The translations under genes and the position numbers were made by a program. From assembly GCF_007747215.1 (NCBI RefSeq), contig NZ_CP036273.1:6060322-6124321 (forward strand): a stretch of 64,000 nucleotides of DNA, in the 5' to 3' direction. This document shows, one piece after another, positions 12,180 through 60,999 of the stretch. The notes below the pieces were generated by a model, which searched no databases, was not told the DNA's origin, and saw only the letters and a list, made by a program, of their open reading frames with translations. Position 1 is the stretch's first letter. Each line of letters begins with the position of its first letter. This DNA comes from Urbifossiella limnaea. Its GTDB lineage: Bacteria > Planctomycetota > Planctomycetia > Gemmatales > Gemmataceae.

Positions 12180-12650
12180 GAAGAAAATGAACAGGATAAC
12201 AGGATGAACAGGATGACCGAGCAGTGCTCCACGACGCGCTGACCGGAAAGGTCATCGGGGTCGCGTACACCGTCTTCAACGAACTCGGGAGCGGGTTCCT
12301 GGAGTCCGTGTACGAGAAGGCCATGAAGTACGAACTTCTCGCCGCGGGGCACGAAGTGATGACCCAACATCCGATCACAGTACTGTACCGCGGGCAGGTC
12401 GTCGGAGAGTTCTTCGCCGACCTGTTCATCGACGGCCGGGTGATCGTCGAGTTGAAGGCCGTCCGCTCGCTCCAGCCCGTCCACGAGGCCCAACTCGTGA
12501 ACTACCTCAAGGCAACCGGCGTCGATGTCGGCATCCTCCTGAACTTTGCTGACACGAAGGTCGAAGTCCGACGCAAGCTCCGTGTACTACCCGAGGCGGA
12601 ACCCCCGGGTTTCTAATCCTGTTCATCCTGTTATCCTGTCCATTTTCTTC
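12180..12650. mobile_element. GxxExxY gene enclosed by 35-bp terminal inverted repeats
   Basis: The left arm 12180-12214 and right arm 12616-12650 are reverse complements at 34 of 35 positions. Only the GxxExxY gene lies between them: nine bases separate the left arm from the GTG, and the right arm starts on the last base of the stop codon. The core ACAGGATAACAGGATGAA recurs in the gene-less inverted repeat at 59581-59685. The unit sits between the two members of a PSD1/DUF1501 pair that are usually adjacent, which fits an insertion. I see no transposase gene and no obvious target-site duplication, so mobility is an inference. Confidence 0.5.
12224..12616 (+). CDS. GxxExxY family protein (TIGR04256)
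   Basis: 130 residues. The defining motif is [13 protein letters not shown] at about residues 24-36 (GxxExxY), followed by [19 protein letters not shown] and [13 protein letters not shown]. The D...ExK arrangement in the last two blocks resembles the PD-(D/E)XK nuclease core, and family members are annotated as possible nuclease-fold proteins with no proven role. The start is GTG at 12224, giving the usual family opening [12 protein letters not shown]. No ATG is in frame upstream before a stop at 12197-12199. The GC content of the flanks drops sharply compared with neighbouring genes. See the enclosing inverted-repeat element. Confidence 0.88.
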
Positions 12651-14110: not shown

Positions 14111-14160
14111 GTTGCCGCTTGCGGCTTCGCGTTGCCCAGCGCGAAGCCGCAAGCGGCAAC
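14111..14160. terminator. Perfect 21-bp hairpin between convergent genes
   Basis: Arms 14111-14131 and 14140-14160 are perfectly complementary with an 8-base loop. It lies between the stop of the DUF1501 gene and the stop of the convergent cyclase-fold gene, so it can serve both strands. There is no U-tract, so simple intrinsic termination is not certain. It shares the core GCCGCTTGCGGC with the hairpin at 43722-43775. Confidence 0.55.
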
Positions 14161-21470: not shown

Positions 21471-21550
21471 AAGGATGAAGGATGAAGGATGAAGGATGAA
21501 CCGGAGCAGCCGGTTCGGCCTTCATCCTTCATCCTTCATCCTTCATCCTT
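21471..21550. repeat. GGATGAA heptamer inverted repeat (four copies per arm)
   Basis: The left arm (21473-21500) holds four tandem GGATGAA heptamers and the right arm (21521-21548) four TTCATCC heptamers. The loop itself holds a 7-bp stem (GAACCGG/CCGGTTC, 21498-21516). It lies between the stop of the zinc-ribbon gene and the start of the DUF4175-like gene, both on the - strand. It is related in style to the GGGGTGAA repeats at 37.7, 38.2 and 56.3 kb. Confidence 0.85.
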
Positions 21551-37694: not shown

Positions 37695-37709
37695 GCGGTG
37701 ATTGTAGAT

Positions 37710-37793
37710 GAAGGGGTGAAAGGGTGAGGGGGTGAATGGGTGAGAAGAACAACTCCTCGTCACCCCCTCACCCCCTCACCCGTCCACCCCTTC
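37710..37793. repeat. GGGGTGAA-type inverted repeat before aroC
   Basis: Arms 37710-37742 and 37761-37793 pair at about 29 of 33 positions and are built of GGTGA-based short repeats. It lies between the Hsp20 stop (37799) and the aroC start (37694), both on the - strand. The same family is at 38244-38325 and 56314-56403. Confidence 0.8.
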
Positions 37794-37798
37794 ACCCG

Positions 37799-38243: not shown

Positions 38244-38325
38244 AAGGGGTGAAGGGGTGAGCTGGTGAAGGGCGACGAAGGGGCCACCTTCTCACCCCGT
38301 CACCCGCGCACCCCTTCACCCTTCA
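38244..38325. repeat. GGGGTGAA-type imperfect inverted repeat between hsp20 genes
   Basis: The left side 38244-38282 and right side 38286-38325 hold GGGGTGAA/TTCACCCC-type repeats that pair imperfectly. It lies between the stop of the upstream Hsp20 gene (38333) and the start of the downstream one (38185). Confidence 0.7.
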
Positions 38326-43721: not shown

Positions 43722-43775
43722 TTCGGCCGCTTGCGGCGCAGCGGCGTTATCGCCGCTGCGCCGCAAGCGGCCGAA
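43722..43775. terminator. Perfect 25-bp hairpin with 4-base loop between convergent genes
   Basis: Arms 43722-43746 and 43751-43775 are perfectly complementary around a TTAT loop. It separates the stop of the M28 gene (43713) from that of the convergent DUF1501 gene (43779). Its core GCCGCTTGCGGC is shared with the hairpin at 14111-14160, also between convergent genes. Confidence 0.6.
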
Positions 43776-56313: not shown

Positions 56314-56403
56314 ATGAAGGAGTGAGGGGGTGAAGGGGTGAAGGGGTGACGACCCGGCGTTTCTCGTCACCCCTTCACCCCTTCACCCCCCTCACCCCTT
56401 CAT
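56314..56403. repeat. GGGGTGAA-type inverted repeat between phoU and phoB
   Basis: Arms 56314-56351 and 56365-56403 pair almost completely (one mismatch and one bulge in 38-39 bases). The right arm contains the phoU stop codon (56400-56402). phoB starts at 56259, so the hairpin lies within the operon, between two co-directional genes. Confidence 0.88.
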
Positions 56404-58165: not shown

Positions 58166-59560
58166 TCAGAAGAGCTCGCGCACCGGTTCGCCGCCGTGCG
58201 GCAGCAGATTCAGCACGCGCCCGCTCGCGTCCGTGTAGGTCGCGTCGAGCGGCACGCCGAAGTGGCGGTACACGGTCGCCGCCAGGTCGCCGGGCGACAC
58301 CGGCCGCGTCGCAATCTGCCCGCCGTCCTTGTCGCTGCTGCCGATCACCTGGGCGTGCCGCAGCCCGCCGCCGGCCAGCAGCATCGACATCACGTAGGGC
58401 CAGTGGTTGCGGCCGTCGGTGCTCCCCTGGGTGCCGAGTTGCGGGGTGCGGCCGAACTCGCCCATCGCCAGCACCAGCGTCTGGTCGAGCAGCCCGCGCT
58501 GCTCCAGGTCGGCGACCAGCGTCGTGATGAGGTGGTCGAACAGCGGCAGCAGCGGGCCGAGCCCCTTACTGATGCCGCCGTAGGGCGGGATGTTGTCGCC
58601 GTGCGTGTCCCACGTGCCCGACGCCGTGTGATAACTCAGGTCGAGGGTCACGAACGACACACCGGCTTCGACCAACCGGCGGGCGAGCAGCGCTTGCTGA
58701 CACCACAGGTGCTTGCCGTAGCGGTCGCGGGTGGCGGCGGGTTCGTGGTTCAGGTCCAGCGCGGCACGGACGCGGCCGCCGGTCAGCATCCCGAGCGCCT
58801 GCCGGCCGTACTTGTCGAACCCGTCCATCGCGCCGGTGCGGTCGATGTCGGCGCGGAGGCGGTCGAAGGTGCCGAGGAGGGCGCGGCGGTCGGTGAGGCG
58901 GTCGGCGGGCACGTCGGTCGGCAGCTCGAACAGGCCGCCGTCGCTGACGCGGCCGGTGTCCTTCCCGACCAGGTCGTAGACGGGGAGCTTCGCAGCGGTG
59001 TTGGCGAGGAACGGGTCGTACTGCCGGCCGAGGTAGCCGCCGAAGGCGAGGTGGCTGCGCGACCGCATGAACGCGGCGGTGGCGGGCACGTCGGGCCGGT
59101 TCGGGCCGCGGAACTTCGCCACCAGCGAGCCGACCGCGGGGTAGTGGCGCGCCTCCGGGTTGGTGCGCGGCTCGGCCAGGAGGTTGGCCGTCTGCATCAC
59201 CGTGTTCGGCTCGTGGTTGCTGTGCCGGCAGTCCACGGAGCGGATCACGGTGTAACGGTCGAGCTGCGCCGCGAGCTTCGGCAGGTGCTCGCAGACGAGG
59301 ACGCCGGGGAGGCGGGTGCGGGTGACGCCGAACGGCCCGCGGTTCTCGGGCGGCCGGTCGGGCTTGGGGTCGAGGGTGTCGATCTGGCTCGGCCCGCCGG
59401 CCATCCACAGGAGGATCACGGACTTGGCGCGGTTGCCGCGGCCGGCGTCTTGAGCGCGGAGGAGGTTCGGGAGCGACAGCCCGCCGACGCCGCCGAGGGC
59501 GGCCTGGAGGAGGCCGCGGCGGGTGGGGTGGAACGCGCCGAAGGCGTGGGCGTGCGGCAT
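58166..59560 (-). CDS. DUF1501 family protein
   Basis: 464 residues from ATG 59560. The N-terminus [20 protein letters not shown] is a Tat-like signal. Conserved blocks are [22 protein letters not shown] and [17 protein letters not shown] (Asn replaces Asp of the usual GRDH). It ends a - strand cluster with DUF1592-type, ADP-ribosylglycohydrolase and DUF1552 genes. The 44-bp inverted repeat 59581-59685 separates it from DUF1552. Its role is unproven as for the family. Confidence 0.9.
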
Positions 59561-59580
59561 GGTAGATTTCTGAAGCCGAG

Positions 59581-59685
59581 TTTTGACAGGATAACAGGAT
59601 GAAGCAGGATGGAAGACAAAGACAGAAATCAATTTAAAAGTTGTCTTTGTCTTCCATCCTGCTTCATCCTGTTATCCTGTCAAAA
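59581..59685. repeat. Perfect 44-bp inverted repeat with AT-rich loop (ACAGGATAACAGGATGAA family)
   Basis: Arms 59581-59624 and 59642-59685 are perfectly complementary, with a 17-base A/T-rich loop. The core ACAGGATAACAGGATGAA is shared with the repeats flanking the GxxExxY gene at 12180-12650. It lies between the DUF1552 stop and the DUF1501 start. The base composition is far from that of the surrounding genes. Confidence 0.92.
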
Positions 59686-59694
59686 ATCATGTGA

Positions 59695-60999
59695 TTAGAT
59701 TTCCGTCAGCTTCTCGGTCGAGTCGCCGAACGCCGGCAGCCGCACGCCCGCCTTCTCCAGCAGCGACAGGTACAGGCTGCACATCTTGCGGTTCGGCTTG
59801 CCGAGGTAGTCGAGGATGCGGCCGGTGCGGATCTGGCCGCCGCCCTTGCCCAGCAGCACCACCGGCAGCTGGTCGTTGTTGTGGCCGCCGGTCATCATGC
59901 TCGACGCGAACAGGATCATGCTGTTGTCCAGCAGCGTGCGGTTGCCTTCCTGCACGGCGTCGAGCTTCTGCGCGATGTACGCCAGCTGCTGCACGAAGAA
60001 CTGGTTCACCTTCAGCCAGTCGGCGTTGTCGGTGTGGCTCAGCAGGTGGTGGATCATGTAGTCCACGCCGAGGTGCGGGAACCGCAGCGACGAGTGGTCG
60101 TTGTTCAGCTTCAGCGTACACACGCGCGTGGTGTCGGTGCGGAACGCCAGCACCAGGATGTCGCACATCAGCCGCATGTGCTGGTCGATGTCCTGCGGCA
60201 CGCCGCCGGCCGGCCGCGGCACGTCCGGCTTCTCCAACGTCGGCCGCCAGCCCTGCAAGCGCCCGGCCTGCCCGGCGCCGGCGATGCGCTGCTCCACGTC
60301 GCGGACGCTCGCCAGGTACTCGTCCAGCCGGCGGCGGTCGGCGGTGCTGACGTTCCGCTGCAAGCCTCGCGCGTCCTCCAGCACGGCGTCGAGGACGCTG
60401 CGGTCGGCGCGGCCCACGTCGTCGCGGAACAGGCGGTCGAAGGCCAGCGCGGGGTACAGCTCCAGCGGCGTGGGGGCGGTGGCCGAGCTCCACGAGATGT
60501 GGGAGCTGTAGATCATCGAGTAGTTCTTGTGGATGGCCGCGATCGGCGGCTCGCACCCGAGCACGAGGCTCGGCACCTTCGTGAGCCCGCGGGTGCGCTC
60601 GGCGAGGAGTTGGTCGCAGCTGATGCCGGAGCGGACCTCCCCGCCGGGGGCCAGATGCGCGCCGGTGAGGAGGTTGCCGGTCTGGCAGCTGTGGATGCCG
60701 CCGATCAGCGCCTCCTGGTTGTACAGGCCGCGGATGAAGTTCAGCTTCTGGCGGTGCGGCACGAGCGGCTCGAGCACCTTGCCGAACTCGAGGCCGCGGC
60801 CCTCGTCCTTGGCCCACCACTCGGTGCGGTGGAAGCCGTTGCCGCAGAACAGCGCGGCGAATCGCACCGGCGGCTCGGACGACCCGCGAGCCGGGGCGCC
60901 GTCGTCGCCCCAGACGGGGGACGATTCGAGCCACGGCAGGGCCATCGACACGCCGACGCCGCGAAGGAACGTCCGCCGGGAGAGGGGTTGCACGGGCAT
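59695..60999 (-). CDS. DUF1552 family protein, Tat-exported
   Basis: 434 residues from ATG 60999. The Tat signal LSRRTFLRGVGVSMALPWLE is the typical DUF1552 opening. Conserved segments are RFAALFCGNGFH, SGISCDQLLAERT and ILFASSMMTGGHNNDQLPVVLLG. DUF1552 is related in gene context to DUF1501 and is usually found beside DUF1592/DUF1588-type genes in planctomycetes and other environmental bacteria. Its function is unknown. Here its DUF1592-type partner is one gene further upstream, with the ADP-ribosylglycohydrolase gene between them. Confidence 0.92.
   Translation of the reverse strand: MPVQPLSRRTFLRGVGVSMALPWLESSPVWGDDGAPARGSSEPPVRFAALFCGNGFHRTEWWAKDEGRGLEFGKVLEPLVPHRQKLNFIRGLYNQEALIGGIHSCQTGNLLTGAHLAPGGEVRSGISCDQLLAERTRGLTKVPSLVLGCEPPIAAIHKNYSMIYSSHISWSSATAPTPLELYPALAFDRLFRDDVGRADRSVLDAVLEDARGLQRNVSTADRRRLDEYLASVRDVEQRIAGAGQAGRLQGWRPTLEKPDVPRPAGGVPQDIDQHMRLMCDILVLAFRTDTTRVCTLKLNNDHSSLRFPHLGVDYMIHHLLSHTDNADWLKVNQFFVQQLAYIAQKLDAVQEGNRTLLDNSMILFASSMMTGGHNNDQLPVVLLGKGGGQIRTGRILDYLGKPNRKMCSLYLSLLEKAGVRLPAFGDSTEKLTEI

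Follow-up and report, generated by a model that had tools for sequence, protein, structure and literature searches.

The hairpin at positions 59,581 to 59,685 of the window (the whole stretch of 64,000 nucleotides that was analysed) represents a recently formed member of a palindromic repeat family that is mobile and is kept at the 3' ends of genes. Our best explanation, to which we assign a probability of about one half, sees in it a non-autonomous member of a MITE/REPIN-like repeat that is young and restricted to the genus and on which the resident GxxExxY protein probably acts. The evidence comes from the copies of the family in the analysed genome (G000, 7.80 Mb), their counterparts in five congeners (G001 to G005), and the genes found inside inverted repeats across Planctomycetia.

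The hairpin and its gene-less family

The hairpin comprises 105 bases, and its arms are exact reverse complements over 44 bp around 17 bases, just as the first-pass annotation had described; the repeat finder extended the arms to 47 bp with one mismatch (59578-59624 and 59642-59688). The RNA fold of the hairpin was -83.3 kcal/mol vs -28 +/- 3.7 in shuffled sequences (z = -14.9), and Markov-shuffled windows gave one to three inverted repeats with arms of 14-21, none of which resembled it. A search of Rfam with the hairpin returned sub-threshold matches only, mostly microRNA-shaped. The features of the hairpin, its neighbours (genes were called by a simple codon-usage caller written for this analysis) and the related cassette at 12 kb are as follows.

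59577..59689, no strand: probable full element; in 43 aligned copies, conservation across the family and pairing between the arms stop about 8-9 nt beyond the core
59581..59624, + strand: left arm of the hairpin, 44 bp, perfect
59625..59641, no strand: loop of the hairpin, 17 nt, GAAATCAATTTAAAAGT
59642..59685, - strand: right arm of the hairpin, exact reverse complement of the left arm
59695..60999, - strand: upstream gene, DUF1552/HXXSHH, with its stop codon 9-10 nt ahead of the hairpin
58166..59560, - strand: downstream gene, DUF1501, with its start codon about 20 nt past the hairpin
12180..12214, + strand: left arm of the GxxExxY cassette, same family as the hairpin
12224..12616, + strand: GxxExxY gene, probable coding member of the family (TIGR04256, 5e-40; PF13366 PDDEXK_3, 5e-40)
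12616..12650, - strand: right arm of the GxxExxY cassette, same family as the hairpin

Four copies of the core ACAGGATAACAGGATGAA are present in the window, two at the hairpin and two at the 12-kb cassette, with none expected by chance, which bears out the earlier assignment of the two loci to one repeat family (hereafter the ACAGGAT family). The genome-wide count and classification that had been proposed gave 47 matches in G000 at three or fewer mismatches, nearly all as facing pairs 53-77 bp apart, which resolve to about 24 hairpins without a gene and a single pair that encloses one, namely the cassette; the core is thus neither unique to the two loci nor unpaired elsewhere. The family splits into subfamilies, among them a 95-nt type with GGAAGACAAAGACAG inner arms, which includes the present copy, and a type of 78 nt whose inner arms read ACCGAACC.

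An independent pattern count found 22 family hairpins in G000, 51 in G001 and 8 in G005, and no match in G002, G003 or G004. The family copies in G002, G004 and G005 were decayed, and G003 had no exact core match. Outside the genus set, exact hairpins were found in only three assemblies of the public genome collection (a Gemmataceae MAG, a Planctomycetia MAG and one labelled 'Bacterium'). When 43 copies were searched for a target-site duplication, no end position showed a convincing direct-repeat excess; the intergenic regions were too diverged for a base-exact comparison with empty sites. An informal look at the aligned flanks of the family copies noticed no GTAG or CGTC tag at one end.

The proposed comparison of arm divergence showed that the arms of a copy resemble each other more than they resemble those of other copies. 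In G000, the arms differed at 2.0 of 34 bases within a copy vs 8.0 of 34 between copies, and in G001 arm identity was 88% vs 55%. Six copy-private changes were present on both arms and 11 on one arm (5 vs 7 without one misregistered copy). The private changes on both arms far exceed the expectation from independent mutation and suggest that one arm was copied from the other, presumably at the DNA level, or that a new hairpin was formed from one arm. The first-pass annotation had read the perfect arms as a sign of recent formation or active correction. Active correction is possible in view of the several both-arm changes, although one-arm changes are at least as frequent, and recent formation agrees with the comparison of congeners described below. 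Homogenisation spreading from the arms into the flanks was considered and rejected, because it appeared in a few G001 copies only (p = 0.02 in G001) and was not significant in G000.

Placement and turnover at gene ends

The family copies of G000 and G001 lie between codirectional genes in 27 cases, convergent genes in 10 and divergent genes in 4, with one copy inside a gene, and the median distance from the stop codon to the hairpin is about 11 nt. A census of hairpins of all families in an 864-kb sample (11% of G000) gave a similar picture, with 57 codirectional, 15 convergent, 4 divergent and 4 genic hairpins; the median start was 7 nt past the stop codon, 55 of 57 were closer to the stop than to the start, and divergent spaces were depleted (4 hairpins in 109 spaces vs 72 in 297 other spaces; Fisher P = 3e-7).

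This extreme closeness to stop codons, together with the occurrence of hairpins in tight convergent pairs, is what would be seen if the hairpins served the host as a selected terminator, a protector of mRNA 3' ends or an RNase III site, and if the families changed by gene conversion between hairpins. We consider this reading unlikely. Since there is no T-tract behind them (23% T behind 87 hairpin sides), the hairpins are not canonical intrinsic terminators; the T-run after a GC-rich stem that marks such terminators was lacking on both counts, with arms of 41% GC and TTTT at only 3 of the 87 sides. The excess of G-U over A-C in transcript orientation, the sign of selection on the RNA, was not significant (20 vs 13). 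The decay of the arms in G002 and G005 also speaks against a maintained function.

Orthologous gene ends in the five congeners, compared for genes about 65-91% identical, bear on both readings. A hairpin of the same sequence was shared in none of the comparisons, a different hairpin was present in 14, a hairpin was found in G000 only in 19 and in the relative only in 9, and 37 had none. The absence of shared same-family hairpins indicates that the repeat turns over fast, and it has no explanation in the hairpin-biased choice of some relative loci; the compared slots share none of these insertions, which supports the recent formation mentioned above. At the slot of the present hairpin, G001 carries a CACAGAGTCACAGAG hairpin and G003 a CGCAGATG hairpin. 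In favour of a host function, hairpin-bearing ends in G000 more often had a hairpin in the relatives as well (14 of 33 vs 9 of 46 elsewhere, P = 0.04, with relative loci partly chosen for their hairpins), a co-occupancy that is suggestive; against it, the congener had no hairpin at 19 of the 33 occupied slots.

At one gene end of G001 (L317, between the orthologs of L039 3069 and 3183), the slot holds about 1.3 kb of extra sequence, and the G000 slot holds only a hairpin.

GxxExxY and four-helix-bundle genes inside inverted repeats

The 12-kb gene is a clear member of the GxxExxY family, and its protein contains, as read by eye, a stretch of the PD-(D/E)XK kind; no solved structure matched it by sequence. 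The papers found on GxxExxY described no role for the family and were not seen to link it to palindromic repeats. The outer arms of the cassette match the gene-less copies, and the inner-arm sequence of the latter (GGAAGACAAAGACAG or ACCGAACCAAG) is absent from the cassette arms. The GxxExxY cassettes with ACAGGAT arms in G000, G001 and G004 occupy one orthologous locus, so no movement of the cassette itself has been observed. At this locus (12224-12616; L309, L337), G000 and G001 are 88% identical in the upstream neighbour gene and 60% in GxxExxY; the unit has been inherited in place, with a fast-changing protein.

Both genomes in which the ACAGGAT family is abundant and intact, G000 and G001, have the cassette. 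No ACAGGAT cassette was found in G002, G003 or G005, and there the family is decayed, rare or absent; G004 combines the cassette with hardly any intact gene-less copies. In Planctomycetia as a whole, GxxExxY genes were enclosed by inverted repeats of short units at 39 of 52 loci (22 of 32, including three G000 genes, and then 17 of 20 fresh loci), compared with 2-7% in a mispaired control. All three GxxExxY genes of G000 lie in inverted repeats, of three different families. A strict 9-nt period of the GxxExxY arms failed, holding at 2 of 17 fresh loci, where spacing was mostly 8-11. The genes of the four-helix-bundle protein known from 23S rRNA intervening sequences (IVS) were likewise found in inverted repeats at 33 of 50 loci (19 of 30, then 14 of 20), including six of the seven in G000, and their arms consist of 7-8-nt repeat units, which held in all 14 fresh loci.

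Seven of the nine repeat-bound cassettes in G000 had cognate gene-less hairpins in the 11% genome sample, and shuffled sequences gave none. The GxxExxY protein tree required 9 changes of arm family vs 15.6 when shuffled; we did not accept this as proof of recognition, because the signal, although real, partly reflects vertical inheritance at one locus.

Other hairpins in the window belong to further families. A perfect 30-bp hairpin of AAGGATG units (21471-21550) has arms matching the four-helix-bundle cassette at G000:C1:6188277, and three hairpins of GGGGTGAA units (37709-37794, 38247-38321 and 56326-56390) have their match in the arms of another such cassette, at G000:C1:212460. Short GC-rich hairpins (CCGCTTGCGGC) with many copies in the genome lie between convergent stop codons at 14111-14160 and 43722-43775.

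Possible movers of the gene-less copies

REP elements are short dispersed intergenic palindromes located between codirectional and convergent genes, with multiple families per genome (PMC3733652), and the ACAGGAT family resembles them in its many extragenic palindrome copies and in this placement. It could therefore be a REP-like passenger that some unrelated enzyme of the host (a RAYT/Y1 transposase or another IS) mobilises, with GxxExxY itself a passenger inside such hairpins. G000 does encode Y1 (HUH) transposases (three matches, one strong), the class of the RAYTs that usually partner REP elements, and the RAYT loci of G000 and G002 have GC-rich hairpins on their flanks. However, the ACAGGAT palindrome flanked no RAYT gene at the six Y1 loci scanned, and the hairpins neighbouring these genes were of other, GC-rich families; G003 has the most Y1 genes (11) and yet lacks an exact core match. 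GxxExxY, by contrast, lies within ACAGGAT-family arms in three species. The ACAGGAT family also differs from REP/REPIN-RAYT systems in its arms of 44 bp made of short repeated units and in having its coding partner inside the hairpin. An unrelated mover thus appears improbable to us. At L313 1887-2087 and at L311 1137-1254 and 1900-1977, Y1/RAYT genes are flanked by GC-rich hairpins (GGCCGAAGGCCTG.., CCCAGGGTTTCACCCTGGG), and together these are probably the true REP-RAYT system of the genus.

In Coxiella, the IVS forms a hairpin whose stem measures 28 bp and whose loop holds an S23p (four-helix-bundle) ORF, with heptameric GACAGAT repeats beside the ORF (PMC4990558). The ACAGGAT family is like it in forming hairpins that may or may not contain a small ORF in their loop. 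The same protein family occurs here in hairpins of 7-8-nt units (the 33 of 50 loci above), with gene-less partners. An IVS-like selfish hairpin at the RNA level, which would be tolerated thanks to removal or trimming by RNase III and would spread as RNA or cDNA, is nevertheless very unlikely for the present family. The loop of the 95-nt copies occurs in both orientations relative to transcription, and the partner of the family is GxxExxY (TIGR04256), not the IVS protein. Moreover, the ACAGGAT hairpins lie between or behind protein-coding genes instead of in a 23S rRNA helix, and the 17-nt loop of the present hairpin has no S23p ORF.

The suggestion of the first-pass annotation that the hairpin is a simple deletion derivative of the cassette is scarcely credible: apart from the common outer arms, the cassette lacks the inner arms of the gene-less copies, which form several subfamilies and outnumber it by about 24 to 1, and it stays at one orthologous site in three species.

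MITEs and the Rickettsia palindromic elements are non-autonomous palindromic repeats without an ORF. The ACAGGAT hairpins share all three properties, although neither a transposase with matching ends nor a target duplication, the mark of a MITE derived from a DDE transposon, was found for the family. Four observations weigh against the mobile repeat served by GxxExxY that we prefer: the cassette keeps one orthologous site, G004 has hardly any intact gene-less copies, no target duplication is seen, and private changes fall on one arm at least as often as on both. For this mobile repeat, the following course may be proposed. New gene-less copies would arise from other family copies, and we infer that GxxExxY moves them in trans. 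The resident cassette, with GxxExxY in the same arms, would be the probable source of the acting PD-(D/E)XK nuclease-like enzyme, which may nick or cleave the palindrome, probably in an extruded or single-stranded form, and copying across the arms would then equalise them. The copies that persist would mostly be those within a few bases past a stop codon, a position at which a hairpin in the transcript may be tolerated or even useful as a 3'-end structure. Over distances no greater than those within a genus, they would disappear or give way to hairpins from other families.

These results show that palindromes can rewrite gene 3' ends fast within one genus. GxxExxY, an annotated family, gains a genomic context and a tie to dispersed gene-less hairpins, as does the IVS protein family, for which the question of mobility has stood for decades (PMC4990558). 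We tentatively suggest, while regarding it as somewhat doubtful, that there are two widespread classes of mobile palindromes, one with GxxExxY nuclease-like proteins as its cognate enzymes and the other, separately, with four-helix-bundle IVS proteins, and that both send gene-less hairpins to gene 3' ends. If this is true, the two classes would be transposase-independent counterparts of REP-RAYT systems, and the 23S rRNA intervening sequences would be a special case of the second.
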